Positions 917-20,210 of a stretch of 22,143 nt of DNA are shown here, in pieces (within the stretch, counting starts at the first letter, position 1; each line of letters starts with the position of its first letter). The notes below the pieces were generated by a model, which was given only the letters and a program-made list of their open reading frames with translations, was not told the origin of the DNA and searched no databases. Source of the DNA: a virus; the IMG/VR virus record IMGVR_UViG_3300044638_003845, positions 1-22,143 of that record. One strand, given 5' to 3'. The position numbers and the translations under genes are program-made.

Positions 917-1905
917 GCTTGTTGAATATACTTATTAAAGTTTTCTTTTAGTTCTACAAGTGAAGAATAGCTTGGTGATGTGGATGCATACTCATAGAGT
1001 GCATCTGTGTCTTTACATCCAGTAGCAAGTGAGACTATCTTCATGATACGAAGAGTGTCTAAACCTATTTCAGTTTCTTCCTTGATTGGATAGCCAACCT
1101 GCGCAGTCTTTTTAGTCTTTACAATCTTTAGCTTTGACGGATGCTCACTTGAAATTGGTGGAAGGTGAGCGCTGCGTATGCTACGCTTTGCGCCGTCTTC
1201 GCTTGAGGAGGTTGCAACCACTGTGCCGTCTGTAGTGTCTACTACTGCATAGAGTTCGCGCATTTCATCAAGTTCTATAGACTCTTTACGAGTTTTCTTA
1301 CGAGTTTTCATTAACAACTCATAGGTACGTCCATCATAACCGTTCTTTGCCCACAATTCGTGTTCATCATCGGTTAGACCTTTCATAAGGTCAGCAATTG
1401 CTTTCCAATTTTCTGTATCGATATACCGGTTTATTTGACTTGCAGATACTGTGCCTTCTTCAAGTTCGATTTCATCTTCTTCCTTTCTTAAATTAGAAAA
1501 CACTTTTCTCCAGGCAGCAGCCCTCTTAGCACGATCTTCTTTGTTTGCTTGACGAACTTGTGCGGTGTATGACATCTTTTTGCCATTTGTCTTAGTTTGT
1601 TCTTCAACAGTGTCTGTAATTACTGCTTCTTCTATACTCTCATTGCGTTGAGCAGCATAATATGCACCGAGTGCCATATTGATACGTTCTTTTTTTGACT
1701 TTCCGGCAAAGCGGGAGTTGTCACTGTCAATAAAATCACGAATCCAATCTCCGACTGGATCACTCTTTTTTAGTATTTCAGATAAGCTTTTAGTTTTCAT
1801 ATATTGTTGTATGTTTTGCCCAGGGGTGTCTTTTATATATTTATATAATAGGGCTTTTGTGCCCTCAAAGCCGGCACCATATTCTTCATCGAGTTGTGAA
1901 TTCAT
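913..1905 (-). CDS. Putative virion or prohead-core protein with GAG-DTPGQ and GKSKKER motifs
   Basis: A 330-residue protein. Residues 10-30 carry the block GAGFEGTKALLYKYIKDTPGQ (first 20: GAGFEGTKALLYKYIKDTPG), which I recognise from structural-region proteins of marine T4-like phages. Residues 60-90 hold RFAGKSKKERINMALGAYYA, another recurring block of such proteins. A second in-frame Met at residue 36 (base 1800) begins MKTKSLSEILKK, like the targeting peptides of neighbouring genes, and has a TATAAATA box 37 bases upstream (1838-1845). The gene may therefore give a full-length and a shorter product. I kept the long start because the GAG-DTPGQ block looks genuinely coding. Several (I/L)-x-E sites (SIEE|A, ELEE|G, ELDE|M) could be prohead-protease sites. 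The start overlaps the upstream gene by 20 bases. Function unknown. Confidence 0.65.
   Translation of the reverse strand: MNSQLDEEYGAGFEGTKALLYKYIKDTPGQNIQQYMKTKSLSEILKKSDPVGDWIRDFIDSDNSRFAGKSKKERINMALGAYYAAQRNESIEEAVITDTVEEQTKTNGKKMSYTAQVRQANKEDRAKRAAAWRKVFSNLRKEEDEIELEEGTVSASQINRYIDTENWKAIADLMKGLTDDEHELWAKNGYDGRTYELLMKTRKKTRKESIELDEMRELYAVVDTTDGTVVATSSSEDGAKRSIRSAHLPPISSEHPSKLKIVKTKKTAQVGYPIKEETEIGLDTLRIMKIVSLATGCKDTDALYEYASTSPSYSSLVELKENFNKYIQQA
1838..1845 (-). promoter_or_regulatory. Late-promoter-like octamer inside the GAG-DTPGQ gene
   Basis: The minus strand reads TATAAATA, an exact match to the T4 late -10 element. It lies 37 bases before the internal ATG at 1800, a normal leader length for T4 late genes. 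It also lies in codons for Tyr-Lys-Tyr-Ile, so chance is possible. Confidence 0.4.
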
Positions 1906-2749
1906 AACTAGTTATTTCTCGTATGTCATGTATAAAAAATTTAACTTGTTTGTCTTCAGTTTCATTTACACACGTGACATAGTTAGGACCACGATTGACA
2001 ATCTTATATTCTACGTTGTCTTTTATCGCCATTACACTGTCTCCAACGTTGTATATCTCACCAGAGATATAACGCTCACGTGTTTCGCTGAGTGTGTCAA
2101 ACTGAACGTGTTTACGAAAGTTATGACTTTCTTTTAGTCCCATACCAACGCGAACCGCATTAAAAAGATCTTTAACTGCGCCAAATGTTTTTGGTACTCC
2201 TTTAGCAAAGGTCTCTAGATCGTTGGTTGCAACGGCACTTCTCATTTTAGATGCGCTAATTTTGTATGTACTTTGACCTGTTACTGCATCTACATCTGGA
2301 TCACGTTGACCAGTAGATACAATCTTTATACCGTCTTTAAATTTATAATAGCCATGACTGCCCTTAACTCCATCATATTTTTGTAGAGTCGCTTTAAATT
2401 CTGCAACACGATCGCTGCCAACCGCAACGATAAGGTGTGTGTAGCCTTCATCATAGACGCTTGATGCGACGTTAAAAATATTTTTAATTGAGCGATCTAA
2501 GATAATATTACGACCATACTGCGGAAACATCTTTCGCATAAACTTGATCTTTTCTTCATAGCCAAGAGGATTTTTCTTAGGATCTTCGCTTTGAGAAGCA
2601 TAGATTCTAAATGGCTTTCCCTTTGCAATCTTTTGAGATATTGCATCAAAGTTTTCTTCATGTCCTATTGTAGGAGGGTTGAAGCGACCAAACGTGACGA
2701 CTATTTCTTTAGTCGTTTCCTCTAGATATGTTTTAAATGATTTTATCAT
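1886..2749 (-). CDS. NadR/NMNAT-like nucleotidyltransferase with capsid-targeting-like N-terminus
   Basis: A 287-residue protein of the HIGH-type cytidylyltransferase/adenylyltransferase superfamily. Numbering from the ATG at 2749: GRFNPPTIGH at 21-30 is the nucleotide-binding T-x-G-H motif, GSDR at 111-114 is the conserved mid-domain motif, and ISASKMR at 164-170 matches the terminal ISSTxxR motif. By family knowledge it would transfer a nucleotide from ATP or CTP to a phosphorylated acceptor such as nicotinamide mononucleotide; the true substrate is unknown. An in-frame Met 15 codons upstream (2794) is rejected because 2749 leaves one base after the upstream stop and puts MIKSFKTYLEE|T at the N-terminus, like its neighbours. 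Residues after about 200 form a small extra C-terminal domain. Packaging into the head is inferred from the N-terminus. Confidence 0.85.
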   Translation of the reverse strand: MIKSFKTYLEETTKEIVVTFGRFNPPTIGHEENFDAISQKIAKGKPFRIYASQSEDPKKNPLGYEEKIKFMRKMFPQYGRNIILDRSIKNIFNVASSVYDEGYTHLIVAVGSDRVAEFKATLQKYDGVKGSHGYYKFKDGIKIVSTGQRDPDVDAVTGQSTYKISASKMRSAVATNDLETFAKGVPKTFGAVKDLFNAVRVGMGLKESHNFRKHVQFDTLSETRERYISGEIYNVGDSVMAIKDNVEYKIVNRGPNYVTCVNETEDKQVKFFIHDIREITSYEFTTR

Positions 2750-3425: not shown

Positions 3426-3869
3426 TTATTTACCCTTATGCTGCGCCCACAGGTCAGCATCTGTAGTCTTTTGAGTAGGTCCACCCACAATAAAGCTATT
3501 GACACGAGCATATGCCCATTGCTGTTGATTTGCTCCAGGACGATGACCTGTTTTCCATGCAGCCATACCACGATCAAATACTTTTTTAAGAATGCTGTAT
3601 GCTATTCCAGTTTTTTCTGATTTCTTTTGCAATGCTGATAGTTCTGACTCTTCAAGTTCTTCTCCATATTTGTCAGCATATGCTTTTGTCCACTTAGATG
3701 TTTTTGTGTCTGCGTGTGCGTCTCCTGGAGCAGGTTTGTATGCACTTGGATCATCATCACTCATGCGCGTCTGACGATTAAAATGAGCACTCCGTTTGTC
3801 AGATGTGCTTTTAGACAATCCTTTATAATAACCTGAGTTTTCTAGTAAATATTCTTTGAATGATTGCAT
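3426..3869 (-). CDS. Small conserved phage protein with capsid-targeting-like N-terminus
   Basis: A 147-residue protein starting MQSFKEYLLENS, with a possible prohead-protease site L-L-E|N after residue 10. It then shows two blocks I recognise from many phage proteins of unknown function: a KGLSKSTSDKRSAHF segment followed by DPSAYKPAPGDA (about residues 17-52), and a C-terminal block GMAAWKTGHRPGANQQQWAY followed by ARVNSF (about 105-130). The blocks are conserved and positively charged, which suggests nucleic-acid contact, but no activity has been shown that I know of. The start abuts the stop of the upstream gene, indicating translational coupling. Co-packaging in the head is inferred from the first ten residues. 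Confidence 0.7.
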   Translation of the reverse strand: MQSFKEYLLENSGYYKGLSKSTSDKRSAHFNRQTRMSDDDPSAYKPAPGDAHADTKTSKWTKAYADKYGEELEESELSALQKKSEKTGIAYSILKKVFDRGMAAWKTGHRPGANQQQWAYARVNSFIVGGPTQKTTDADLWAQHKGK

Positions 3870-4502: not shown

Positions 4503-5741
4503 TTATCTTTCCCATCCTTTGATTATATTAGGATCAAAATTATTCTTAGAAAATGTCATGCGATCTACAAGTTTGACTACATTTTGTTTTATATGATCAT
4601 TGATAGCAAATCCTTCTTGACTTGAAACTCTAAATCCATCAACTGTACGAACAAACGTTGACATCTTTTTAAGCGTTTCAAGTTTGCGTATTATAATAAG
4701 TTTTGCTTCAACGATAGCGTTTTGCAATGCATAGACAAGTTCTAGGTTTTTCTTGTTCTCATCAGAGAAAAACTTTAAAAACTCATCTCGTTTAGCAGTC
4801 GCACTCGCTTTGCCAGCTTCACTCTTTTTAGATTCAATGTCTTTTGCATACTTGTCATTTATCCATGCAAGAAGATTGCGAACATGAGCAGCGGTATCGG
4901 TTATAGTTTCACCACGACGTACCAGTGTGTTGTTGAATGTTTCAAGAGTCTGTGCGAGCGATTGATCTGATTCAATCTCACGAAGAGTTGAACCACTAAT
5001 CTTTTGAAAGAGCGACCCTGCTTTTGATAGAGTCGCTGTTAACTCTTCGGTTTCTCGTGCAGTTAAGGTAGCTTTACCTGAAAGATCACGTATGTATGTG
5101 TCTGAAAACCACACGCTTGGAGTACGCTTAAGCACGCTTGAGTCAAATCCGTATGAAGCCTTCATGGTCTCAAATGAATTTCCAGTGTACTGAGTATGAA
5201 ACATTACACCAATCTTTGATGCCTTTATAGTTTTTGCGAGAGCACTATCGTTTGGTACTGCATAGACGATAGTATTTGGTTGAAACGTAAGATACTCAAC
5301 TCCATCAAATCTTTCAACCTTTAAATCTTTTTGAGTGTATGCAAGATCTCCTTGAAGCACTCCTTTGATACCCAACTTTTTAAATTCATTATAGGCAACG
5401 GTGAGTTTGTCTGCAAGATCACCACTCGTATCGGCCTTTATATCACTTTCACTCTTATAGACTTTTGGATTTTTATTAAAGATGCCTTTCTTAGCAACGA
5501 AAAATTGTCCATCACTTGGGTCGGTTCCAACAAATATTGCTGGAGCACCGTCAAACTTTGCAGCGACGTCATATGATTGAGGGCTATTGCCAGCCAACAT
5601 GTCTCTCATACTACGAAGTGCGATGATTGCTTCGCGTGCACCCTTTACTCCTCCATATAACACCTGATCCTCAATATGAACCATGTGCAAATTTTTACCT
5701 TCTGTTGAGGCTTCAGTTATGTGTTGTTTAAAGCTTTTCAT
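4503..5741 (-). CDS. Ligase-fold (KxDG) nucleotidyltransferase-like protein with capsid-targeting-like N-terminus
   Basis: A 412-residue protein. It begins MKSFKQHITE|A, a near copy of the T4 capsid-targeting peptide with the I-x-E cleavage site. Residues 61-70 (AKFDGAPAIF) fit motif I K-x-D-G of covalent nucleotidyltransferases (DNA/RNA ligases, capping enzymes), with K62 as candidate AMP acceptor. FFVAKKGIFNKNPKVYK (80-96) and GVLQGDLAYT (127-136) lie where later ligase motifs would fall, and TIVYAVP follows. I recall the family as a phage family of unknown function (DUF6267), so ligase activity is inferred from motifs. The second half (240-412) is helical. The gene follows its upstream neighbour after one base. 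If packaged, the enzyme would enter the cell with the DNA and could seal or modify ends. Confidence 0.65.
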   Translation of the reverse strand: MKSFKQHITEASTEGKNLHMVHIEDQVLYGGVKGAREAIIALRSMRDMLAGNSPQSYDVAAKFDGAPAIFVGTDPSDGQFFVAKKGIFNKNPKVYKSESDIKADTSGDLADKLTVAYNEFKKLGIKGVLQGDLAYTQKDLKVERFDGVEYLTFQPNTIVYAVPNDSALAKTIKASKIGVMFHTQYTGNSFETMKASYGFDSSVLKRTPSVWFSDTYIRDLSGKATLTARETEELTATLSKAGSLFQKISGSTLREIESDQSLAQTLETFNNTLVRRGETITDTAAHVRNLLAWINDKYAKDIESKKSEAGKASATAKRDEFLKFFSDENKKNLELVYALQNAIVEAKLIIIRKLETLKKMSTFVRTVDGFRVSSQEGFAINDHIKQNVVKLVDRMTFSKNNFDPNIIKGWER

Positions 5742-5742
5742 G

Positions 5743-6489
5743 TTAGAATGTTATGATGTCACGATTGCTCGCTGGTTTGTCTGTGACGACTATTCGGCCA
5801 GCACTATCACCTCGTGATGGTGATTTACTGTAGATTTTTGGTGTGCCGTTTGGATATTTCGCGGTTGGATCAAACGTCTGATCTTCGCGGCGACCTCGCA
5901 ATCTAAAATATAGGTCATGACTGTCTGCATACTTTTCGGCTGAAGTAAGTTTTCCATTTACTGTCAAGACTCCGTCATTGAATTTTGACTGTACATTCAT
6001 AGGACCAATATACATATAATCGATTGGACCTCCCATGGCTAAATTTCCAACTACAAGCAGTTTTTTATCGGCGTCGTTTAGAACGCCATAAGTATCTGGA
6101 ACTTTTTGACCAGCTTTTAATTTATTTTTAAGGTGTTTTTTATACGCAGCAGCATAGAATCTATAGCCGATTCCAGGTATAATCTCTTCGATACCTCGTA
6201 ATCCTCCGCCAGCAAGTGAAGGAGCGCTCTCGCCCTTCATAGAAATGTTTACAAATGTTCCGTTCTTTAAAAATAACTGAACGTCAGTATACGGCTCTGA
6301 TCCACTTGATTGGCGACCAGAATATTTTTCTGCATTGACCACGTTTTTTATATAAGAGTCGTCACTTTTAACAGTTATCGATTGCCCACCATTCTTTTTA
6401 ACTGCATATTTTACTGCTTTAACAAAGGATGATTCTTGACGCTCAGCTGATATACCAGCTTCTGTAATATATTCTTTAAAGCTTTTCAT
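5743..6489 (-). CDS. Putative nuclease-like protein with capsid-targeting-like N-terminus
   Basis: A 248-residue protein starting MKSFKEYITE|A, the best match in the window to the T4 capsid-targeting peptide (same length, same I-T-E|A cut). Residues 67-85 (YTDVQLFLKNGTFVNISMKG, start of block) read as a beta-hairpin with D69 and K85 in the spacing of a PD-(D/E)xK nuclease core, followed by SAPSLAGGGLRGIEEIIPG. I recognise the latter from phage proteins of unknown function. The usual acidic residue before the Lys is Ser (S-M-K), so catalysis is uncertain. GNLAMGGPIDYMYIGPMNVQ (148-167) is another conserved-looking block. The gene is spaced one base from both neighbours, so it belongs to one transcription unit with the ligase-like gene. 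Confidence 0.55.
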   Translation of the reverse strand: MKSFKEYITEAGISAERQESSFVKAVKYAVKKNGGQSITVKSDDSYIKNVVNAEKYSGRQSSGSEPYTDVQLFLKNGTFVNISMKGESAPSLAGGGLRGIEEIIPGIGYRFYAAAYKKHLKNKLKAGQKVPDTYGVLNDADKKLLVVGNLAMGGPIDYMYIGPMNVQSKFNDGVLTVNGKLTSAEKYADSHDLYFRLRGRREDQTFDPTAKYPNGTPKIYSKSPSRGDSAGRIVVTDKPASNRDIITF

Positions 6490-8893: not shown

Positions 8894-10426
8894 TTATGCG
8901 TAGGACTCGATCATACGAGCAAGGTCGCCATCAGAAACTTCAACGCCTGCAGCAAGTGCTCCTGCAGCCATATTCAAGCCACGAGAGAGTTTACGAAGGT
9001 TAGCACTCTGTTTGCTTTTGCCTTTACGAAGCAGATCAACAACGTGTAAGCGAGCTTTCTGATCAAGATTTAAACCGTCTTCAAGCTTCATCTCTCCTAC
9101 AATCTTTTCCATAAAGTCATAGATTTCAGTTTCTGTAGGGTCGATGTTGATAATAAATGCACGAGTACGAAGAGCGCCGTCTGGATCAAGCTTATTAAGA
9201 TCGAGGTTTGAGATAAAGATAATCTTTCCAGTAAATTCGAAATAGCGTGGAATCAATCCTTGATCGATAATTTCATCGTCGCTCATGTCGTCTTCAGGAT
9301 CGACAACGTTTTTACCCATCTTGTTCCAAACGAGCTTGCGAATCTTTTTGGTATCGGTAGCAGCCTTTAACAGGTTGCGTGCTTCTTGATCACCAAGTGC
9401 GTCGTCGCTGTCATCAAAGAAAACAATATCATTTTTATAACGAAACAGCAATGAATAGAGACCAGCTGCGCTTGCAGAACCAGTATTCTTGAAATAGCCG
9501 TTTCCATCACTCAGTCCCATGCTTGAAAGAATCTTTTCAGTAGTGTGTGTTTTACCAACACCACCTTTACCAGAAACGAATAGCGCATTCGCTGCGCCAC
9601 TTACAGTAAGCTTAACAAGATTTTCAAGATCTTTTAGTTGTGCTTCAAAGGACAAACGATCTTGATTTTTTTCAAGTTCTTCTACTTCAGGAGAATAACT
9701 GTATTTTTCTTTGGCTGCTCCCTTTGAAACTGTACCAGACACGATTCCGATGCGAGCCATAATCTTTCCCTTTTCAGCTTTGATCTGCTTTAGGTCTTTT
9801 GCCTTGCCAACCCAGACATACTTGATGCCTTGCTTTTCAATATAGTTTGGATATGCCGCTGAAAGAGCGTCAAAGATTTTAACACCTGGAACACCAAACA
9901 TGCTGTAAATTTTGCTCTTTACAAAATTTGGATCGACGAGATAGTCAGCAATCTCATCAAAGATGGCTTCAAAGTCATGATTGCCACGAGCTTCATTCAA
10001 CACTCCTTCATAGAGTGGCACTTCGTCAGGCATGCTGTAAATCTTGCCAAGTTCGGCAGTTCCAGCGCTTAAGATGTCTGCGATAATAGGCAAAGTCTTT
10101 ACAAGTGATACATCCTGATCAAATTCAATATGAAAAGGAACTGGATTTTTACCGTTCCAATAATCTATCGAAGTAAGATTATTAAGCCCTACAAGTGAGC
10201 TTTGTGTCCAGTTAAAACGTACACTCATATTGCGCTTTGCCGAGTAAAGACGTAATCCAAAACCAATACCGTTAGAGTTTGTATATTTTTCTAAACCAGG
10301 ATATCTGAAAAACGTTGTGCCAGTTTTCTTCTTGAGATAGCGTTGAATGATGAATGCTGCTTTTTCTACAGATGATGTAGAGAGTGCCTCTGTTAGGTAA
10401 CGTTTAAATTCGGTTAGTCGTGACAT
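8894..10426 (-). CDS. AAA ATPase with capsid-targeting-like N-terminus
   Basis: A 510-residue P-loop ATPase. Walker A is GKGGVGKT at 286-293 and Walker B is DIVFFDD at 333-339. ISNLDLN in the later FTGKIIFISNLDLNKLD block fits sensor 1, and GALRTRAF would place arginine-finger residues. A separate N-terminal domain (about 20-140) has no motif I know. The protein begins MSRLTEFKRYLTE|A, a possible capsid-targeting peptide with cut site L-T-E|A, and has a second site VLNE|A at 145 that would remove the N-terminal domain. I recall similar ATPases of unknown function in marine T4-like phages. The gene is the first of the late module, preceded by two TATAAATA boxes and separated from the helicase by 40 bases. 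Whether it acts in DNA metabolism, assembly or ejection is unknown. Confidence 0.75.
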   Translation of the reverse strand: MSRLTEFKRYLTEALSTSSVEKAAFIIQRYLKKKTGTTFFRYPGLEKYTNSNGIGFGLRLYSAKRNMSVRFNWTQSSLVGLNNLTSIDYWNGKNPVPFHIEFDQDVSLVKTLPIIADILSAGTAELGKIYSMPDEVPLYEGVLNEARGNHDFEAIFDEIADYLVDPNFVKSKIYSMFGVPGVKIFDALSAAYPNYIEKQGIKYVWVGKAKDLKQIKAEKGKIMARIGIVSGTVSKGAAKEKYSYSPEVEELEKNQDRLSFEAQLKDLENLVKLTVSGAANALFVSGKGGVGKTHTTEKILSSMGLSDGNGYFKNTGSASAAGLYSLLFRYKNDIVFFDDSDDALGDQEARNLLKAATDTKKIRKLVWNKMGKNVVDPEDDMSDDEIIDQGLIPRYFEFTGKIIFISNLDLNKLDPDGALRTRAFIINIDPTETEIYDFMEKIVGEMKLEDGLNLDQKARLHVVDLLRKGKSKQSANLRKLSRGLNMAAGALAAGVEVSDGDLARMIESYA

Positions 10427-12152: not shown

Positions 12153-12752
12153 TTAGTCACATGTGTTTCCATAGTGTTCAGGCAGCCAAACATACGAAGA
12201 AACTACATATTTTGAGTTGGATACTGGAGTTGCACCCTTATGAGGATACATAAAATATGGAGGGAAACATAGTACGTTGCCAGCTTCTGGTTTTATCGCA
12301 ATTTCTGTTCCGATATCAAACAACGTTTCTCCGCCTTCAGCAACATCGTTGAGATACCAAAACATTACGATTGCTCGTTTACTAGAAGGAATATCACAAT
12401 GATCAGTATGCCAATCAAAGATTCCAGTTCCTGGTTCATAACGCTTTATTCGTGGAGCTTCAAAATCTTTTAGCGGTTCATAGCATGGCAGTCTGTCTTT
12501 TAGAATGTTGCATGTTTTTTCAAGATAATGATTGTTTACTGCCCTCATGAGCTGCATCATTGGCACTCTAAATTCAGAGAACGCATCATGATCAAGCATG
12601 TTGATTTCACCAAAATCAAATATTTTATTTTTACGCTGTAGCTTTAATGGATCTGAAGCACCGATAGAATCATAGGTGTCTATAAGTGCTTGACACATAT
12701 CAAGCGGCATCGCTCCCTTGAGCAGCATTATATAGTCTGCAAGAGTTTTCAT
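12153..12752 (-). CDS. 2-oxoglutarate/Fe(II)-dependent dioxygenase (prolyl hydroxylase-like)
   Basis: A 199-residue protein of the double-stranded beta-helix dioxygenase superfamily. DWHTDHCD (113-120) gives H115 and D117, and HKGATPV gives H171: together the HxD...H iron triad. K181 in NSKYVVSSYVW fills the place of the basic residue that binds the 2-oxoglutarate carboxylate. GGETLF (140-145) is the signature turn of the prolyl 4-hydroxylase branch. Marine T4-like phages often carry such enzymes and their substrates are mostly unproven. Its place between uvsX and the helicase, close to the base-modification genes, makes a nucleic-acid substrate possible, although P4H-type protein hydroxylation is the default. 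The start overlaps the end of uvsX by four bases. Confidence 0.88.
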   Translation of the reverse strand: MKTLADYIMLLKGAMPLDMCQALIDTYDSIGASDPLKLQRKNKIFDFGEINMLDHDAFSEFRVPMMQLMRAVNNHYLEKTCNILKDRLPCYEPLKDFEAPRIKRYEPGTGIFDWHTDHCDIPSSKRAIVMFWYLNDVAEGGETLFDIGTEIAIKPEAGNVLCFPPYFMYPHKGATPVSNSKYVVSSYVWLPEHYGNTCD

Positions 12753-13810
12753 TCTTCTTCAAATGTAACTTCGTCCTGAGAATCATCGATCATGTCTCGT
12801 AGACCGATCGTATATTTCTTCTTGATATAAGAAGCAAAATCAGTTTTGGTAAAGATTGTTTCCCAAAAATCTTTCGTAAGAGTCTGAGCTGCACGAAGAT
12901 TTGCAGTAAGTTCAGTCTTTGTTGCTGGATCATATGCAACATACCAACCATTCTTTGGTTTTACTACATAGCCACCATCTACTGCAATATCAAGAAGACC
13001 ACTCCATTTTTGAATGCCGCCTTCCCAACTTACGCTAATCGGAATCTTACTCTTTTCTTTTACGAATCTAGATTTTTCAACGTTGATAACAAAATGATAG
13101 CCTTGAATCTCTGTGCCTTCTTTGTCTTGCTGACGCCCCAAAATCCAGATGTTGTCGGCAGAATAGGTGATGCCTGTTCCACCGCTAACGACAGCTTTAC
13201 TAAACATCTCTTGAGTTTGATATGTATGGTTAATTGCGAGAAGCGGAATATTCTTAAGAGTAAGATATGGAGTCACCATACGAAACAGACCCTTTAGACT
13301 TTTTGCTCGAGTCATGTCAGCGACACTCTTTTCATTCATCGCATCTTCAAGTTCTTTCTTGGATGCAAGGTTTCCTACCGAATCCACGACGATGATAACT
13401 TTGTCTTTGCGATCTAGTTCTTCAAGCTGATTTACGATATCAAACTTGAGTTCTTCGATATTTTTGATTGGAATATGAAGCACTCGATTTGTGTCAATAC
13501 CAAAACTTTCAAAATATGCTTGCGGACTTCCAAACTCGCTGTCATAAAACATCAAGCACGCATCGCTATGCTTCTTAAGATACGCGCTTGCCATAAGCAA
13601 CGCAAAACTTGTTTTAAAGTGTTTACTTGGACCTGCGAGTACGGTAAGACCGCTTGTAAGTCCTCCATCGATGCTGCCGCTCAGCGCAACGTTAATCATT
13701 GGAACGCTTGTACTCGTAACATCTTTATCAGAATAGAACGCACTCTCTGCAAGTACTTCAGCTTCTTTGATACGACAATTCTTTTTTAGTTTTTCTAATA
13801 CTGATGACAT
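12749..13810 (-). CDS. uvsX: RecA-like recombination protein UvsX
   Basis: A 353-residue strand-exchange ATPase. Walker A is GPSKHFKTS at 60-68, a form typical of UvsX rather than RecA (which has GPESSGKT). Walker B lies in KVIIVVDSVGNLASKKELED (about 136-155), and the L1/L2 region follows with NEKSVADMTRAKSLKGLFRM. GGTGITYSADNIWILGRQQD is the conserved strand before the core end. The acidic tail SQDEVTFEEE matches the tail seen in UvsX. It drives recombination-dependent replication and repair, normally with UvsY and gp32, neither of which is in the window. A sigma70-like promoter precedes it, so uvsX, the dioxygenase, the small gene and gp41 probably form one early/middle operon. Confidence 0.95.
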   Translation of the reverse strand: MSSVLEKLKKNCRIKEAEVLAESAFYSDKDVTSTSVPMINVALSGSIDGGLTSGLTVLAGPSKHFKTSFALLMASAYLKKHSDACLMFYDSEFGSPQAYFESFGIDTNRVLHIPIKNIEELKFDIVNQLEELDRKDKVIIVVDSVGNLASKKELEDAMNEKSVADMTRAKSLKGLFRMVTPYLTLKNIPLLAINHTYQTQEMFSKAVVSGGTGITYSADNIWILGRQQDKEGTEIQGYHFVINVEKSRFVKEKSKIPISVSWEGGIQKWSGLLDIAVDGGYVVKPKNGWYVAYDPATKTELTANLRAAQTLTKDFWETIFTKTDFASYIKKKYTIGLRDMIDDSQDEVTFEEE

Positions 13811-13832
13811 AATTTATTTGTGTTGTGTTGCT

Positions 13833-13861
13833 ATTATAATATATTCTTTTGTAAATGTACA
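13833..13861 (-). promoter_or_regulatory. Sigma70-like promoter before uvsX
   Basis: On the minus strand the -35 hexamer is TGTACA (13861-13856), followed by a 17-base spacer and a perfect -10 TATAAT (13838-13833). The ATG follows 22 bases later through a CA-rich leader with no Shine-Dalgarno site. The same TGTACA-17-TATAAT layout occurs at 20751-20779. Confidence 0.7.
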
Positions 13862-14914
13862 TTATAAAAAGAATGAATCTAAACTATTATTCTGATTCAA
13901 ATCTTTTTCGATGCCTGTCCAATGCGGATAAAATTCTCTAGACAAATGAACTGATTGTGGTTTTTCCATCTTTGCAAAGTCTAGCTCTCCAAGACTGTTT
14001 GCTAGATAGTCTGTCCATCGAATAAGCTTTGCTCTAGTCGCTATTCGTTCAGCTTCATCTGCAAATATCTGTCGACACTCGTTGCGTTGTTGCCAAGACC
14101 CATAGAATGGCTGACCTTTATAGTAGCCAGTTTTTGGCAACTTTCGAGATGGATTTTCAATCAAAAGCGGTTCATATATAGAGACGTCATCGATAGGCAA
14201 CGATTCTACCGCTTCGACATATCGTTTTACAAGATCCTTAGTATTTTGAATATAGTCTGGAGATATTCTGCAAAGATGATGTCTGATATCGATGTTGCCA
14301 AAATAGCACTCAAGCGCTTCAACTTGATTTAGATCTTTATGGGGAATAGTATCTCTGATTCCATCGTTGATCACTCCGTTTAATGTTTTAAACGGGATAG
14401 AATTTACAGTCCAACCTGGACGATACATACAAATCGAATGAGAATCTCCAATCACAACCTTGCTTGTTATGTGTGGAAACTTTAAGGTTGGAGCGTGTAT
14501 ATACATACGCTTAAGATTTTCAAGGTCGACTTCGAGCCATTCTTGTTGAATAGGTTTTTTGGCTTGCGTCGCCTTAGAGATTCGTTCAGACAGCATTTCA
14601 TGATATGCTGGAAAATCACATGCCAACGAAATGACACGACCTTTAAATTGAGAAAATGCTTTTACGTTTTTGACGTTTGAATATTTTTCGAGGCCTCCAA
14701 AAAGATTTAACGTACCAAACCAATCGTTTCCATGATAAACGTATAGTGTATCATATTGATTATAGTCGTCGACCTTTCCACCAAAATTAATGTCAAGATC
14801 AACTCCAGATTGTCGAATCATATCGGCATAAATTACACCCTGTGATGAACGATGAGACGATGGTCTATCGCTAATTGAATTAAATGGGCAGCTTAACAGT
14901 GCTTTCATCGACAT
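13862..14914 (-). CDS. GDSHS-motif (SGNH-like) protein of the hypermodification cassette
   Basis: A 350-residue protein. Residues 153-160 (VVIGDSHS) resemble the GDS nucleophile block of SGNH/GDSL hydrolases, with S158 as candidate nucleophile, and YRPGW follows. The C-terminal third holds LPKTGYYKGQPFYGSWQQRN followed by ECRQIF, and later LIRWTDYL and EKPQSVHLSREFY. I recognise this set from phage proteins of unknown function that travel with DNA-hypermodification genes. A catalytic His/Asp pair near the C-terminus, needed for a true SGNH hydrolase, cannot be fixed by eye. The gene lies between the transferase-like gene and uvsX with a 29-base gap upstream. An alternative start two codons in (MKALLSCP) is equally plausible. 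Role in trimming, transferring or activating the modifying group is inference. Confidence 0.55.
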   Translation of the reverse strand: MSMKALLSCPFNSISDRPSSHRSSQGVIYADMIRQSGVDLDINFGGKVDDYNQYDTLYVYHGNDWFGTLNLFGGLEKYSNVKNVKAFSQFKGRVISLACDFPAYHEMLSERISKATQAKKPIQQEWLEVDLENLKRMYIHAPTLKFPHITSKVVIGDSHSICMYRPGWTVNSIPFKTLNGVINDGIRDTIPHKDLNQVEALECYFGNIDIRHHLCRISPDYIQNTKDLVKRYVEAVESLPIDDVSIYEPLLIENPSRKLPKTGYYKGQPFYGSWQQRNECRQIFADEAERIATRAKLIRWTDYLANSLGELDFAKMEKPQSVHLSREFYPHWTGIEKDLNQNNSLDSFFL

Positions 14915-14943
14915 ACTATACTCTAAATTTATATCTTTGTAAA

Positions 14944-16014
14944 CTATTTTTTCTTACAATTTTCAAAATGCCGATAACCCTTTCCATCTAAGATAACTTT
15001 ACCTTCAGGATGTTTAGCTAAGCTAAAATTATTTGGAAAAATCCAATTATATGGAATACGTTTTGTAGGCGATTTAACGTTATGATTGATAGCTATATGT
15101 TTGTAAAATAGGCACGATTTATCTTCTATGTTTAGCATTTTTTGAGCAGTCATCGGGTTGCGAGAGTCTTCACATAATATCTTCATCTGCTCGAGCCAGA
15201 GTTTGCACATATCGTTTTCTGCAACAAATTGACCGTCACCATCTATAGAATATTGTGCTTTGCCGTTTATATTTTTGCCTCCGAAAATTTGATGCAAACC
15301 ATCAAAATGACCGGTTCCTCCATATAGCACACTCTCTGGATCCACTAGATCTGGAAACGACATAGCAAGATAGCGCGCGGCATTCTTGCATGGATAGAGC
15401 GGAGAACGAAAGCCTTGATGCTGCTTAAAATATGCTTCCATCAACTTAGCAAATTCCATCATCGTATACGGACGCTTAAGATTTTCAAGATGATGAGACA
15501 TCGCTGTTGCTGCTTTCAACGGTCCAGTTAACAGCCAATCTTTTACGTTTGTATTGAGTGGATAGTATATCTGAAACAAGTCGTTTCTAGCATGACGATT
15601 TCTAGAAAAATGATCGCGCGTCGATTCGATACCGTTTTCAATCAGATGTGTCAATGTTCCCCAATGTTCGTTCGTAAATGAAAAGACGAGTGTATACCAT
15701 AGAATATCTTTTAGATCTGTCATGCCTCGCATCAAATCACAAAACGGATGTTCATGCCAATGCAAGCGGTGAGAAAAGATTTGATAGTCTTCGGCCAGCA
15801 GCTTGTCTTCTCGTTTATCAAATGCATGACAAAATTCAAAAAACTTTTCAAGCCTCTGATCTAATGTCCAGTTTCTCATCCAACTGTCTATCGGCTTTTT
15901 ACCATTTTTTAGCGGAACGCTATGGTCAGTGTCTTCGTAGATAATGTTGTTATATTTTACACCATCCTCGATAAAATCTTCAAGAGTATTTTTGTTGCTA
16001 ATCATTTTTCCCAA
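14944..16014 (-). CDS. Putative DNA-base hypermodification protein, aGPT-pyrophosphorylase-like fold (copy A)
   Basis: A 356-residue, mostly helical protein. Its order of blocks fits the alpha-glutamyl/putrescinyl-thymine pyrophosphorylase-like (HhH glycosylase-fold; amino acid:DNA transferase) superfamily. A helix LWYTLVFSFTNEHWGTLTHL comes first, then CKNAARYLAMSFPDLVDPES, the Gly loop VLYGGTGHFDGLHQIFG, and finally MLNIEDKSCLFYKHI, which lies where the family has its E-D-x-x-C-x-x-x-K/R-Y motif. Enzymes of this class replace an activated 5-hydroxymethyl group on pyrimidine bases in DNA with an amine or amino acid. Assignment is by pattern, not alignment. It overlaps the PLP-enzyme gene by 13 bases, so both are made together. 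The start used here is the first in-frame ATG; the fourth codon is another ATG. Confidence 0.55.
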   Translation of the reverse strand: MGKMISNKNTLEDFIEDGVKYNNIIYEDTDHSVPLKNGKKPIDSWMRNWTLDQRLEKFFEFCHAFDKREDKLLAEDYQIFSHRLHWHEHPFCDLMRGMTDLKDILWYTLVFSFTNEHWGTLTHLIENGIESTRDHFSRNRHARNDLFQIYYPLNTNVKDWLLTGPLKAATAMSHHLENLKRPYTMMEFAKLMEAYFKQHQGFRSPLYPCKNAARYLAMSFPDLVDPESVLYGGTGHFDGLHQIFGGKNINGKAQYSIDGDGQFVAENDMCKLWLEQMKILCEDSRNPMTAQKMLNIEDKSCLFYKHIAINHNVKSPTKRIPYNWIFPNNFSLAKHPEGKVILDGKGYRHFENCKKK

Positions 16015-16874
16015 TCTCGATATGAATCTGTGTTGTCTATAATTGATTTATCATGAAGAATTGGATCGGTTCCAACATTCCACATTAAAATTCTACGACC
16101 AGTATTTTTTGGAATATATTTCCATACCTTTGCATCGTAGGTATTTACTGTAGGAAATGGAGGTAGATTTTCAGTCTTTTCGCTTTGAGGAAAATCTAAC
16201 GGTTCTGAAATTACGTGTGCTCGACCCAACTCTCCTGCCTTTAAGTTTCTAGCTACAGCGATACATGTAAACTTTGCATTAGGCCAAGCGATTTGAAGAG
16301 CTCGAGCTAAAACACCAGTTGATATGGCTACGTAAACTTCTTCTGGTTCTTCTATTGTTGAGGCAGCATGTACTATAGCCGCAGTAGCTAATTCGTGTTT
16401 AAGACCCAACGGAATAAAGTATGCTCCATTTTCTGATGCCCAACGTTTAGCATAGAGATTCAAGTTTGGCATCGCAGCGATTCTCTTAAAGTATGCTTGA
16501 GCTCCGCGTTCGATGCAACACGCTTGATGAACAGAAATTTTCTTTGAAGATGGCATAAAGAGTACGATCTTTTTACCAACATGGCGTTGCGCGACATCAC
16601 ACAAAGAGACTCCTGCTAGTCCTACACGAGGCTGACAATACACGAGTGTGTCTGAATCAATCTTGGATATAAGCAAATCTCCAGCTCGTGTCTTTGTGCC
16701 AACGATTAGATCATCTCGAACAACAAGCACTCCCTCATGCTCGACTACAACTGGATCAGGATTGTATGGAGTCCAACCTTCACACAACGAAAGATAGTAT
16801 TGCTTTGCTTCATGTGGTGACATGAGCCCAATGTCTTTGTTGTAACCGTCTATGATATGTGTATTGTGTGACAT
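16002..16874 (-). CDS. Fold-type II PLP-dependent enzyme of the hypermodification cassette
   Basis: A 290-residue protein. VVRDDLIVGTKTRAGDLLIS (51-70) matches the cofactor-binding start of tryptophan-synthase-beta/ACC-deaminase-like PLP enzymes, with K61 as candidate Schiff-base Lys. KKIVLFMPSSKKISVHQACC then ERGAQ (about 105-130) is the familiar strand-helix that normally handles the substrate carboxylate. STGVLARALQIAWPNAKFTC (about 186-205) replaces the usual Gly-rich phosphate loop. At 290 residues it is somewhat shorter than cellular relatives, and the C-terminal domain is reduced. Phage base-hypermodification loci often include a PLP enzyme that makes or reshapes the amino-acid group on the base. 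It overlaps one transferase-like gene and is one base from the other, which supports joint action. The precise reaction is unknown. Confidence 0.65.
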   Translation of the reverse strand: MSHNTHIIDGYNKDIGLMSPHEAKQYYLSLCEGWTPYNPDPVVVEHEGVLVVRDDLIVGTKTRAGDLLISKIDSDTLVYCQPRVGLAGVSLCDVAQRHVGKKIVLFMPSSKKISVHQACCIERGAQAYFKRIAAMPNLNLYAKRWASENGAYFIPLGLKHELATAAIVHAASTIEEPEEVYVAISTGVLARALQIAWPNAKFTCIAVARNLKAGELGRAHVISEPLDFPQSEKTENLPPFPTVNTYDAKVWKYIPKNTGRRILMWNVGTDPILHDKSIIDNTDSYRDWEK

Positions 16875-16875
16875 A

Positions 16876-18036
16876 TCAAAGTGATTCTACTAGTTTTTTA
16901 TACTGCTCTGCTGTCAAACCGTTTTCTTTAAGTATCTTGTCTCCTGTTGGATGAAAAGACAATTCATTGAAACTTTTAACCAATCCAAGTTCTAGCATCG
17001 CGCGCTGACGTCCAAACGGATGAACCAACTTGCTAGAATTCCAAATCTCATCCAAATCTAGATGACCATACGCATCTCCAGGCTTTACATAATTTTCAAG
17101 ATATCGAATAAAGTCACAACATACATCTTCGACGTTATACGGATAGCCACCAGTATCGTTATAAAGGCTTATCATAATTTCATCGACAAGCTGATCAGCC
17201 TTCATCTTTGTCTTTGACTTGGCGAGATATGAAATACTTTGAATAGCATTGCTGCCATAGTAGAACAGTGACTCTTTGTTTACAAACTCTGGAAACCAGT
17301 CAGCGATGTCTGCAACTATAGCAGCATACTGAAAATGATATTGACGCAGACCGTTGTCTACGTTCCACTTTAACATATACGAACCAATTTCCCGTAAATC
17401 TTTCTTGCCTCCTGCAGTTAAAAAATCTGCTAGATCTCTTGCAAGTTTTGGAGCATACTCACAAAGATAATAGTCACCGCCTCTTTTGTAAGAGGTATTT
17501 TCTGGTTTTGGAAATGCTGGAAACTGATAACCTACCGAAGTATAGAATGAATTTTTCTCATAGCGAACGATATCAGTCATCTTCTCAATGCTGTCTGCAC
17601 GATACAACTTGAAAAGCAGTGTATTATGATAGCCACTCGGTTTTAACGCATAGTTGATAGCAGAACCACATACTCGATGCAAGATAAAAACATATAGCCA
17701 TTCAGCTAAACCGAATGTGTCTTGCTTTCCTGTCCAGCTATTAGCTACTTCTACTCGTTGAGCAGAAGCTTTACCAGCTTTCATTTTTTGCCAATAAGGA
17801 TGACTCGATGTCCATCCATGAAAGCAGTCTTGAACGATTTGAGAAAATCCTGCATAGGCACGCTCTACTACATCATAGAGTTCAACCTTTTCCATTAGAT
17901 CATCACCGATATTGCTATCAATGTGATTGATCATGCCATATGGCGCAGTTAGACTTACATTACATTTTTCTTGCTGCTCCTTAGCAAGAGCATAGTAGCG
18001 TAGAAATTCTTCGTAGTATTCTGTTTTTTCTATCAT
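16876..18036 (-). CDS. Putative DNA-base hypermodification protein, aGPT-pyrophosphorylase-like fold (copy B)
   Basis: A 386-residue helical protein related in layout to the gene at 14944-16014. LAEWLYVFILHRVCGSAINY (about 129-148) is the first core helix pair. QYHFQYAAIVADIADWFPEF followed by VNKESLFYYGSNAIQSIS resembles the family's AY-x-IV-x-DL ... GPGA-x-x-GI segment. PYNVEDVCCDFIRYLENYVK is a clear match in type to the E-D-x-x-C-(D/E)-x-x-(K/R)-Y motif. By family knowledge such proteins act on modified pyrimidines in DNA. The Gly-rich loop is degenerate (YYGSNA), so one copy may be regulatory or have a different substrate. The gene follows the Nmad1-like gene after two bases and precedes the PLP gene by one. 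Confidence 0.6.
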   Translation of the reverse strand: MIEKTEYYEEFLRYYALAKEQQEKCNVSLTAPYGMINHIDSNIGDDLMEKVELYDVVERAYAGFSQIVQDCFHGWTSSHPYWQKMKAGKASAQRVEVANSWTGKQDTFGLAEWLYVFILHRVCGSAINYALKPSGYHNTLLFKLYRADSIEKMTDIVRYEKNSFYTSVGYQFPAFPKPENTSYKRGGDYYLCEYAPKLARDLADFLTAGGKKDLREIGSYMLKWNVDNGLRQYHFQYAAIVADIADWFPEFVNKESLFYYGSNAIQSISYLAKSKTKMKADQLVDEIMISLYNDTGGYPYNVEDVCCDFIRYLENYVKPGDAYGHLDLDEIWNSSKLVHPFGRQRAMLELGLVKSFNELSFHPTGDKILKENGLTAEQYKKLVESL

Positions 18037-18038
18037 TG

Positions 18039-18383
18039 TTAATCGTTTTTAGGACGATTTAAAAAATCACGACCTTCAATCTGACCGTCCATGCCGTTGC
18101 GACAATAAGAAACGATAAACGAACAGTAGTTGATCATATCTTTTGCAGAGTCTTCAATGCTTTCAAAGTTTTGAACATAAGTTGCATCATTTTCCATAGC
18201 AGCTACTACACTTCGCAGACGAAGCATCTTGGCATGAACGATATCAAGCAGAGTAGCTACACCGCGAGGATAATAGTCAGCCTGTCGTATAATGCTGTTT
18301 GGATTTTGATAGTCGTTGCCCTTTTTGAGTTGTAATTCTGCACACTCTTGAAGTACACGAATTGATTCACGTTCTGCTTTCAT
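18039..18383 (-). CDS. DUF1599/Nmad1-like protein
   Basis: A 114-residue protein starting MKAERESIRVL. KKGNDYQNPNSIIRQADYYP, then RGVATLLDIVHAKMLRLRSV, then NFESIEDSAKDMINYCSFIV give the pattern K-x-x-DY ... L-x-x-K-x-x-R-(L/I) ... ES-x-x-D-x-x-x-D-x-x-NY. This matches the small phage family DUF1599, also named nucleotide-modification-associated domain 1, a MazG-like all-helical fold proposed to work on nucleotides. A longer frame opens at 18461, but its first 26 residues lie on top of the conserved 41-residue gene; the ATG at 18383 leaves a seven-base gap and is preferred. It heads the cassette of base-modification genes, which agrees with a role in nucleotide-pool handling or modification. 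Confidence 0.6.
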   Translation of the reverse strand: MKAERESIRVLQECAELQLKKGNDYQNPNSIIRQADYYPRGVATLLDIVHAKMLRLRSVVAAMENDATYVQNFESIEDSAKDMINYCSFIVSYCRNGMDGQIEGRDFLNRPKND

Positions 18384-18390
18384 AATTTTA

Positions 18391-18516
18391 TTAGCCTTGA
18401 CCGCGAGAAAGTTTCTTATAGTTTTTAGACTGCTTAAGATGAGAAGTTTTGCTTTTGGCATGAATGCCTTTACGCTTAATTTTCTTTTGTTGTACTTTGA
18501 TTCCAGTGTGTTTCAT
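18391..18516 (-). CDS. Conserved 41-residue basic protein
   Basis: A short frame from ATG at 18516 to TAA at 18391 encodes 41 residues starting MKHTGIKVQQKKIKRKGIHA and ending SKNYKKLSRGQG. I recognise the RKG-(V/I)-H-(A/S)-K-x-K-T-S ... K-x-S-K-N-Y-x-K-x-x-RGQG pattern from small proteins conserved in T4-like phages, which argues strongly that it is real despite its size. About a third of the residues are Lys, Arg or His, so RNA or DNA binding is likely. It is preceded by a sigma70-like promoter (18524-18551) only seven bases from the ATG, and is followed after seven bases by the Nmad1-like gene. Function unknown. Confidence 0.8.
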   Translation of the reverse strand: MKHTGIKVQQKKIKRKGIHAKSKTSHLKQSKNYKKLSRGQG

Positions 18517-18523
18517 ATGTGTT

Positions 18524-18551
18524 ATTATATATTAGATTTAAATTTTGTAAA
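18524..18551 (-). promoter_or_regulatory. Sigma70-like promoter before the base-modification cassette
   Basis: On the minus strand TTTACA (18551-18546), a 16-base spacer, then a perfect TATAAT (18529-18524), seven bases before the ATG at 18516. The message would begin at or close to the start codon. It is placed to drive the 41-residue gene and the modification cassette downstream. Confidence 0.55.
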
Positions 18552-18553
18552 CA

Positions 18554-19108
18554 TTAAAGATTATATTCTTGAATATATTTTTCGGAAATACATTCTTTTT
18601 TATTTAGGCCATGACGAGACATACGAGATAGTGGAACTCTTTTCCTGCAAAAAATACAGTAACATGTGCCTTGTCTATAGGGGGCAGGTCTTCCAGTAAG
18701 TGTTTCAGATATTTTCTTCTTATGCTCGTCACTATGTCTTTTGCCTTTTAATGTGGTAGATATTTTTTTGTTGCGTTCTAAGTTTGCTCCAAATTTCATT
18801 CCTTTTGTTGGGCTTGTTCTTCCTTTAAGTTTCTTACTGATTTCAGAGTAATCAGTTGAAGAAACTCTTTTTTCAATATGTTCCGGTGATTGTTTATAAC
18901 CGTCAACATCTCTTCCACAATCCCAGTATTTTTTTAAAGAGTTGTATGCCATAGCATCTTCAGCGAGACCGTATTTTAGCCACAATTCATAATGAGCCTG
19001 ACTATGTTCACTTGGAGTTAGATATTCAATATTATCGTCATCATCGGATCCTCCCTGATGCTTCGGTATTATATGATGACGATGGTATCCTTTTTTGCGT
19101 GGTTTCAT
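18554..19108 (-). CDS. HNH homing endonuclease with NUMOD3 repeats and zinc finger
   Basis: A 184-residue free-standing homing endonuclease. Residues 8-40 form an HNH core: HRHHIIPKHQGGSDDDDNIE then YLTPSEHSQAHY, with the H-H pair at 11-12, N26 and the later His residues as metal/catalytic set. Two NUMOD3-type DNA-binding repeats follow (GRTSPTKGMKFG and KGKRHSDEHKKKISETLTGR). The C-terminus GTCYCIFCRKRVPLSRMSRH followed by GLNKKEC has two C-x-x-C or C-H pairs typical of a small zinc finger. Such enzymes cut phage genomes lacking the gene and spread by repair. It sits between gene 42 and the small basic gene with its own late promoter box, as many T4 homing endonucleases do, and so is probably a recent insertion. 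Confidence 0.9.
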   Translation of the reverse strand: MKPRKKGYHRHHIIPKHQGGSDDDDNIEYLTPSEHSQAHYELWLKYGLAEDAMAYNSLKKYWDCGRDVDGYKQSPEHIEKRVSSTDYSEISKKLKGRTSPTKGMKFGANLERNKKISTTLKGKRHSDEHKKKISETLTGRPAPYRQGTCYCIFCRKRVPLSRMSRHGLNKKECISEKYIQEYNL

Positions 19109-19114
19109 ATACTT

Positions 19115-19122
19115 TATTTATA
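19115..19122 (-). promoter_or_regulatory. T4-type late promoter before the HNH endonuclease
   Basis: An exact TATAAATA on the minus strand, six bases before the ATG at 19108, inside an otherwise early/middle gene block. Confidence 0.55.
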
Positions 19123-19153
19123 TAAGAAACCTACCAATTTTACATAATTTTTA

Positions 19154-19846
19154 TTATTCGTTAAGTGATGCAATATATTTCTCTATTAAGTAAAAATGTC
19201 GACTATACACATGCAGGCTGCCAACTTGCCAAGTGATTTTTCCAGCAGTTATCTTATCTGCCTTTTTAATTCCGCAATTATAGTCATAGACAAGTTTGTC
19301 TTGAACATACTTTTGCCACGCATAGTCATTTCGATATCCGTATACCACATCGTTGCTCCGCATCTGTACAACAACTTCAAGCATGCCATCACGAATAAGA
19401 TATTGAACTGCATTCGTGCAGATAAAGTCACTCATTCCATTCACACACCAATTGCTGTGCATAGACGGTCGAGTATAGATCGCGACTGCTCGACGACTGT
19501 TTGGTGAGCGAGTCAACTCCATAAGCACATTTTCATACTGACAATAGTTTTCTGAACTAAACATCAGATAGCCATAGTTGGAATTGATTTTACCATCACT
19601 GCTAGAGACGTCTTGCCAAATTTTAGGAACTGTTCCTGGTATATCAGCAACATACAAACTCATTGACAGATACCAATCTAGTTCGCGCTGAATATAGTCA
19701 TCGTTAATTTCACCAAAGATACTCGGTTCATCTGCACAAAAACTTGCACCAACAAGTTCAAGCGTCGATGCACCAGTTTTGTCAGTGATAAATTTTTTAG
19801 TTTTGTATTGATCTACAAAATGTTGTCGTATTTGACCTATTGTCAT
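19154..19846 (-). CDS. 42: Deoxycytidylate (dCMP) 5-hydroxymethylase, T4 gp42 family
   Basis: A 230-residue member of the thymidylate-synthase superfamily, close in size to T4 gp42. It turns dCMP and methylene-tetrahydrofolate into 5-hydroxymethyl-dCMP. Numbering from the ATG at 19846: C143 in MSDFICTNAVQYLIRDG is the catalytic Cys, followed by the MRSNDVVYGYRNDYAW block. D174, 31 residues after the Cys, stands where thymidylate synthases have the Asn that reads dUMP; Asp there marks dCMP use, as in T4 (C148/D179). GSLHVYSRHFYL is the conserved nucleotide-binding end. The frame extends ten codons upstream (19876), but 19846 leaves one base after the upstream stop and aligns with the family start. 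The phage is therefore expected to carry modified cytosine. Confidence 0.95.
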   Translation of the reverse strand: MTIGQIRQHFVDQYKTKKFITDKTGASTLELVGASFCADEPSIFGEINDDYIQRELDWYLSMSLYVADIPGTVPKIWQDVSSSDGKINSNYGYLMFSSENYCQYENVLMELTRSPNSRRAVAIYTRPSMHSNWCVNGMSDFICTNAVQYLIRDGMLEVVVQMRSNDVVYGYRNDYAWQKYVQDKLVYDYNCGIKKADKITAGKITWQVGSLHVYSRHFYLIEKYIASLNE

Positions 19847-19847
19847 A

Positions 19848-20210
19848 TTAACCAAAGATAGTTTTACGGCATGCAACGATTAGACTTAAATGATAGTTGT
19901 CCTGCTCTTCGAGGCAACTATTATGCTCGGCAAGCTCATCATAGTTTTCAGACAACTCGCACTCTATAATCTTATTGACTTGAAGTGGTCGATCATTCGT
20001 GATATAAAGATAGACGTCAGAGATGCCATCTTTAATTGAGTGACCATTCTCAATGGAAGACCATGAGATGTTGTTGAAACAATCTTGACGTTCGACAAAA
20101 TCAACTACCTTTGAAAATAGTTGATCTCGTAAAACATCAGTAGAGTGAGAATTTTTATTCGCACAAAACATTGAATATATGCGTTCAATTATGGTATGTG
20201 TGTCAGTCAT
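19848..20210 (-). CDS. Hypothetical protein upstream of gene 42
   Basis: A 120-residue protein starting MTDTHTIIERIYSMF. The frame is open 23 codons further upstream (20279), but that extension runs through a terminator hairpin and reads as non-coding, so the ATG at 20210 is chosen. There is a Cys/His-containing N-terminal helix, an acidic middle (NKIIECELSENYDELAEHNS) and a hydrophobic end (YHLSLIVACRKTIFG). No family recognised. The acidic, Asn-rich composition and position directly before the hydroxymethylase suggest a small early or middle phage gene. A TATAAATC box lies five bases upstream. Confidence 0.6.
   Translation of the reverse strand: MTDTHTIIERIYSMFCANKNSHSTDVLRDQLFSKVVDFVERQDCFNNISWSSIENGHSIKDGISDVYLYITNDRPLQVNKIIECELSENYDELAEHNSCLEEQDNYHLSLIVACRKTIFG

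Follow-up and report, generated by a model that had tools for sequence, protein, structure and literature searches.

The DUF6267 gene of a T4-like phage fragment (IMG/VR virus record IMGVR_UViG_3300044638_003845, whose 22,143 bases are here called the window) raises the question of whether such a phage sends a ligase-like enzyme into the host together with its DNA. The gene is an open reading frame (ORF) at 4503-5741, for which the original prediction had proposed a ligase-like enzyme, on the basis of an adenylation-type motif and an N-terminal peptide. Our analysis indicates that the ORF on balance probably encodes a covalent nucleotidyltransferase of the ligase superfamily, which is packaged in the head by means of an N-terminal leader and enters the host with the DNA.

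Family membership and ligase motifs

The 412-residue product was found to be a full-length member of DUF6267 (PF19782), matching profile positions 1-373 of 376 (E = 8.9e-98; 328.5 bits, against a gathering cut-off of 27), and it is also a member of phrog_455. The family, annotated as T4-GC 71 in S-PM2, S-SM1 and S-SSM5, had hits in 465 phage records, of which nearly all belong to cyanophages (phages of marine picocyanobacteria). Among the matches listed, it is labelled either as hypothetical or with the name of the adjoining cytidyltransferase. A search of one literature collection found no paper that names DUF6267, and PADLOC and NCBIfam searches returned no useful match.

The predicted adenylation motif is present as KFDG at residues 62-65, within AAKFDGAPAIF. 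A K-x-D-G match taken alone was dropped as evidence, since about one shuffle in six of the 412-residue protein (15.6%) contains one; the match is significant because K62, D64 and G65 are conserved across homologues. An alignment of 124 homologues (about 32-84% identity), drawn from five viral-contig scans and one genome-contig scan, contains 31 invariant columns, including K62, D64, G65, P67, G131, D132, F153, P155, N156, I158, Y160, G178, H182, T183, Y185, G187, N271, K347, E376, G377, K390, R394, F397 and N401. The segment GVLQGDLAY, which had also been pointed out, lies at residues 127-135 and holds the invariant G131 and D132. Six distant cyanophage members (ACG-2014b, d and f, S-SSM5, S-SM1 and RB11-B) are 293-335 residues long and are shortened mainly in the helical insert between motifs IIIa and IV, which measures 68-93 residues in these proteins versus 131 in the window protein. 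These members nevertheless retain K62, D64, G65, D132, N156, Y160, H182, T183, E376, G377, K390 and R394. Motif I of the S-CREM2 protein reads K-I-D-G.

In the structural model described below, motif I follows the strand formed by residues 58-62, and the putative motifs I, III, IIIa, IV and V (Table 1) fit the superfamily order on the expected strands. Judged from this conservation, the protein is quite likely to be an active enzyme.

Predicted fold

The structure-prediction check bore out the ligase-like assignment. An AlphaFold2 model built from the DUF6267 alignment (mean predicted local distance difference test score (pLDDT) 91.9; predicted template modelling score 0.89), in which the pLDDT falls below 50 only for residues 1-14, gave a nucleotidyltransferase fold, with RNA ligases as the best matches followed by DNA ligases. 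When the Foldseek candidates were run through VIA-align 2, the first 16 rows were all RNA ligases with Z from 8.8 to 7.3, although the tool warns that models without a clear match often reach a best Z of this order (7 to 8). The top row was the Naegleria RNA ligase 6vt0 (Z 8.8; root-mean-square deviation 3.9; 188 residues aligned), and further rows included T. brucei REL1 (1xdn; Z 8.5), T4 Rnl2 (2hvq; Z 7.7) and Trl1 (6n0t; Z 7.7). DNA ligases (Z 6.9-6.3) and helical rows of DnaK (Z about 6.8) came after the RNA ligases. The 6vt0 alignment ends with model residue 403 on chain residue 339; if it is ungapped, E376 would land on Naegleria E312, a residue that was mutated in the 6vt0 PDB series. 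Because the matches are uniformly ligases and the invariant residues stand at motif positions, the case for the fold goes beyond the Z values, which alone are not decisive, and a ligase-like fold is very likely as far as a model can tell.

The model appears closest to the RNA ligases that lack an OB domain (Naegleria gruberi RNA ligase, REL1 and T4 Rnl2), with which it shares the nucleotidyltransferase fold along the greater part of the domain (Z 8.8-7.5) and a K-x-x-G type motif I, followed in order by motifs III, IIIa, IV and V. It differs from these enzymes in its lack of detectable sequence similarity, its motif III Asp, its single motif V lysine, its long helical insert, and the absence of a C-terminal domain past motif V. 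The chain continues for only 22 residues beyond K390, which the model shows as a single helix plus coil, and the protein thus has no OB domain. With T4 gp30 and other PF01068 DNA ligases it has in common the superfamily fold (Z about 6.3-6.9), the motifs, and a neighbourhood of replication and recombination genes, whereas it lacks their OB domain and motif VI, has no Pfam match to them, and coexists with them in DLP6 and S-CRM01. The test for an ATP-dependent DNA ligase gave no PF01068 match, and hmmscan at E values up to 1 gave no match to PF09414 (RNA_ligase, Rnl2/REL type). These results support, by computation, the placement of DUF6267 as a new family within a known ligase superfamily, with a predicted unusual mode of delivery and without a new principle.

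The N-terminal leader

The peptide MKSFKQHITE/A, singled out in the original prediction, occupies residues 1-11 and agrees with the T4 capsid targeting sequence at F4, H7, I8 and E10. Experiments on IPIII in T4 assigned positions 4 and 7 to capsid targeting and positions 8 and 10 to processing (PMC9026906). The window leader resembles those of T4 IPII and IPIII in its ten-residue length, with an aromatic residue at position 4, an aromatic residue or His at 7, Ile or Leu at 8, and Glu at 10, and it differs in its cargo, a predicted enzyme of about 400 residues.

A census was made with the strict pattern M-x(1-4)-[FY]xx[FYH][IL]xE, whose letters were built in by choice, so that the weight lies in its frequency and in its agreement with T4. 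The pattern occurs at 1 of 5,632 internal ATG codons in seven sequences, and at the starts of four window ORFs encoding unrelated proteins (those ending at 1886, 3426, 4503 and 5743). The window leader is beyond chance. Applied blind to the whole of T4, the pattern recovers IPII, IPIII and uvsW.1, and the UvsX and gp41 neighbours of DUF6267 carry it in 0 of 99 cases.

Within the family, 70 of 130 representatives bear a strict leader. Aligned on the Glu, these have Phe at position 4 in 69 of 70, Tyr, Phe or His at 7, Leu or Ile at 8, and Glu at 10. A strict or relaxed leader was found in 84 of the 91 representatives from the window and DLP6 scans, versus none of 22 representatives of the S-WAM1 type. 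Isolates whose DUF6267 protein has the leader include Stenotrophomonas phage DLP6, Methylophilales phage Melnitz and phage C48C1. Its presence tracks the tree, with 7 parsimony changes (3 after hand inspection of variants) against at least 27 in shuffles. The window lineage differs in its leader from the cyanophage members, which have none and start directly at the conserved core.

Two further proteins are of note. T4 uvsW.1 (L504:423-653) begins MLLEFKQFLYEASIDE, with the same leader pattern as IPII and IPIII, and is by its sequence a candidate for an unrecognised head-targeted protein. In the window, an AAA ATPase-like protein (8894-10426, minus strand) begins MSRLTEFKRYLTEA, a leader variant outside the strict pattern.

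Leader-bearing proteins in virions

The S-CREM2 virion has been analysed by mass spectrometry (PMC10665884). Among its 96 readable genes, three encode proteins with a strict leader (an S-adenosylmethionine hydrolase, an APH-like kinase and the cytidylyltransferase), and all three are virion proteins, compared to 0 of 80 non-virion proteins with such a leader (Fisher p = 0.004); the authors caution that virion-detected proteins of this kind might be purification carry-over (PMC10665884). The sole leader-bearing ORF of S-SM1, T4-GC190, was also detected in virions (PMC3037559), and the leader-bearing cytidylyltransferase of S-SZBM1 (ORF 140) is on the virion list. Homologues of the NMNAT-like cytidylyltransferase of the window were detected in S-SM1, S-SZBM1 and S-CREM2 virions. 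Together with the position-wise agreement with T4 and the blind recovery of IPII and IPIII, the S-CREM2 association, which is indirect for DUF6267 itself, supports the reading of the peptide as a leader.

The leaderless DUF6267 protein of S-SZBM1 (ORF 141), encoded next to ORF 140, is not on the virion list, and leaderless DUF6267 is likewise absent from the S-CREM2 table, such absences being weak evidence. Packaging as a trait of the whole family was rejected, given that all 22 S-WAM1-type members are leaderless and that leaderless copies are missing from two virion tables. These observations suggest that packaging is a lineage-specific trait and, because the cyanophage branch is leaderless, the core role of the enzyme may not need packaging. 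For the lineage of the window, the leader makes packaging in the head quite likely.

One virion-detected protein of S-CREM2, which is Cas9-like (L494:7704-10313), has the N-terminus MTSRWSNWSTGSDKKPLRFASFMAEA, in which an extension precedes a leader-like segment. The start of one S-CRM01 protein, MRQSRWAKWSRGTEVKLSLDSFIKEA, is similar.

Gene neighbourhood

In most genomes seen, DUF6267 follows gp43, uvsX and gp41 and precedes the cytidylyltransferase gene. A natural 994-residue protein (L055:270-3251) fuses DUF6267, CTP_transf_like and DUF5824 domains, and a fusion of DUF6267 to the cytidylyltransferase was found in a second sequence (L186). Because the three are joined in the 994-residue protein and are encoded by separate leader-bearing genes in the window (Table 1), they appear to be functionally tied.

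Table 1. Leader-bearing genes of the window and predicted elements of the DUF6267 protein.
Feature	Position	Strand	Basis
NMNAT-like cytidylyltransferase, leader-bearing (MIKSFKTYLE/E)	1886..2749	minus	phrog_395 E 1.9e-64, plus leader
DUF5824 protein, leader-bearing (MQSFKEYLLE/N)	3426..3869	minus	PF19141 E 6.1e-26, plus leader
DUF6267 protein, predicted ligase-like covalent nucleotidyltransferase	4503..5741	minus	412 residues
Motif V, K390 (K-L-V-D-R)	4572..4574	minus	invariant; on strand 387-391
Motif IV, E376-G377	4611..4616	minus	invariant; opens strand 377-382
All-helical insert between IIIa and IV, residues 228-357	4671..5060	minus	model secondary structure
Family signature H182-T-x-Y-x-G187	5181..5198	minus	invariant in 124-sequence alignment
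Candidate motif IIIa, F153-x-P-N-T-I-x-Y160	5262..5285	minus	F153, P155, N156, I158, Y160 invariant
Candidate motif III, Q130-G131-D132	5346..5354	minus	D132 invariant; on model strand 128-136
Motif I, K62-F-D-G65, with K62 as the predicted site of adenylation	5547..5558	minus	invariant, also in distant cyanophage members
Leader MKSFKQHITE, resembling a capsid targeting sequence, with a predicted cleavage site after E10	5712..5741	minus	pattern census; T4 capsid targeting positions 4, 7, 8, 10
Protein with predicted type II restriction endonuclease fold, leader-bearing (MKSFKEYITE/A)	5743..6489	minus	AlphaFold2 pLDDT 84.1

The gene next upstream of DUF6267 in the window (5743-6489) encodes a protein whose model matches HinP1I (Z 8.4), MspI (Z 7.6) and HhaI (Z 7.1), the next row being at Z 4.5, and Foldseek also returned MspI (E = 5.4e-4). 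Its family-invariant residues E19, D69, S83 and K85 look like a PD-(D/E)XK site. In other phages this slot is held by other families, several of which are leader-bearing. The endonuclease-fold protein is possibly co-packaged with the ligase-like enzyme.

Elsewhere in the window, a minus-strand region (12749-20000) encodes thymidylate synthase-like, weakly glucosyltransferase-like and threonine-dehydratase-like proteins, which suggests a cluster for DNA base hypermodification. A homing endonuclease-like ORF (18554-19108, minus strand) adjoins the thymidylate synthase-like gene.

Proposed mechanism

In the proposed mechanism, the first ten residues would work as a capsid targeting sequence of the T4 type, through which the protein joins the prohead core, and a gp21-type protease would cut the leader after E10. 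The mature enzyme would then enter the host with the DNA and act before phage gene expression; the endonuclease-fold, NMNAT-like and DUF5824 proteins, with the same leader, would be its fellow travellers. In the catalytic cycle, K62 would be adenylated by ATP, with a metal held by E376 and the acidic residues of motifs I and III, and with K390 touching the alpha phosphate. A 5′ phosphate would then receive the AMP, and the nicked or broken nucleic acid would be sealed, with the helical insert (residues 228-357) as a putative substrate module. As for the substrate, the fold favours ligases of RNA or of nicked duplexes, whereas the gene context and the missing-ligase pattern described below favour DNA.

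Several observations weigh against a packaged ligase. Ligases stood near the top of the Foldseek search of the PDB with poor E-values (best ligase E = 0.086), and the VIA-align 2 scores carry the warning given above. Motif III has an Asp (D132) where known ligases have Glu, and Val takes the place of the second lysine of motif V. Searches of PDB sequences with the protein or its profile found helical chance matches and no ligase, and profile comparisons gave no signal with phage DNA ligases and nothing with T4 Rnl2 (E = 0.3); these profile nulls are uninformative, because the control comparison of Rnl2 with phage DNA ligases likewise fails (E = 0.31). The residue after E10 is variable (Glu, Gln, Ser, Ala, Asn or Asp), with the Ala of the T4 internal proteins in 10 of the 70 strict leaders, and a search for the proteome of a phage with leader-bearing DUF6267 found none.

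Ligase complement and alternative explanations

DUF6267 could instead be primarily the replication and repair DNA ligase of these phages, one that replaces T4 gp30 and acts in the cell after its expression, with the leader a secondary acquisition of some lineages. This would suit the position of the gene beside gp43, uvsX and gp41 in cyanophages, a pelagiphage, Melnitz and others, as well as the retention of all motifs in leaderless orthologues. It would also suit the ligase complement of these phages. Eight complete DUF6267 phages were scanned for PF01068, PF01653, PF09414 and PF09511, and six of them (HTVC008M, Melnitz-3, C48C1, S-SM1, S-PM2 and S-WAM1) gave no match to any of the four. PF01068 is also missing from 10 of 12 long DUF6267 contigs, some of which are perhaps incomplete. 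T4, which is without DUF6267, has PF01068, PF09414 and PF09511, and a published survey reported that most cyanophage-type jumbo phages have no known DNA ligase (PMC7824862). DUF6267 is thus a candidate to fill the ligase gap of these phages, some of which carry both. Simple replacement of gp30 was not adopted as the principal explanation, since DLP6 and S-CRM01 have a PF01068 ligase besides DUF6267; S-CREM2, too, has an annotated DNA ligase. The protein also has no OB domain past motif V, and its best structural matches are RNA rather than DNA ligases. We consider this explanation unlikely.

The closeness of the RNA-ligase folds is what would be expected of a head-carried RNA-repair ligase that reverses, at the start of infection, the cleavage of tRNA or mRNA by host defence ribonucleases. 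The pelagiphage HTVC008M encodes, directly downstream of DUF6267, a P-loop protein (L083:11724-12383) that matches both Zeta_toxin and AAA_33, and such a partner would be in keeping with RNA repair. Its Zeta_toxin score is the better of the two, however, neither a kinase nor a phosphatase for end healing could be recognised in the window, and the leader-bearing neighbour there has the fold of a DNA endonuclease. A role in RNA repair is, on this evidence, an improbable one.

It might also be argued that the N-terminal peptide is an ordinary amphipathic helix with no packaging signal, and that DUF6267 stays in the cell. The low pLDDT of the first 14 residues and the limitation of virion detection to other leader-bearing proteins would agree with this; yet the four-position pattern recurs on unrelated proteins, is found at a single internal ATG in the census, recovers IPII and IPIII, marks virion proteins of S-CREM2, and is absent from the UvsX and gp41 neighbours, all of which make an ordinary helix quite unlikely. 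Finally, the protein could have a ligase fold and yet serve to cap, AMPylate or in some other way modify a target other than a nucleic-acid break, or could have lost catalysis and bind nucleotide only. The motif III Asp, the single motif V lysine, the family-specific H-T-x-Y-x-G and the occasional fusion to an NMNAT-like domain would fit this reading, which is very unlikely, as invariance of the motif residues down to the distant members argues for catalysis.

Implications

With a probability that we place somewhat short of even, DUF6267 may be an unrecognised ligase family that serves as the ligase so far missing from T4-like cyanophages and pelagiphages, with one branch delivered in the head as part of a cut-and-seal kit. 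If so, DUF6267 would be shipped with a protein of restriction-endonuclease fold and an NMNAT-like enzyme for use in the first minutes of infection. The ligase assignment would explain the apparent lack of a ligase in most such phages, a gap noted in the literature, and the leader pattern would offer a simple rule, easy to check, for telling which enzymes enter the cell along with the DNA of a T4-like phage.
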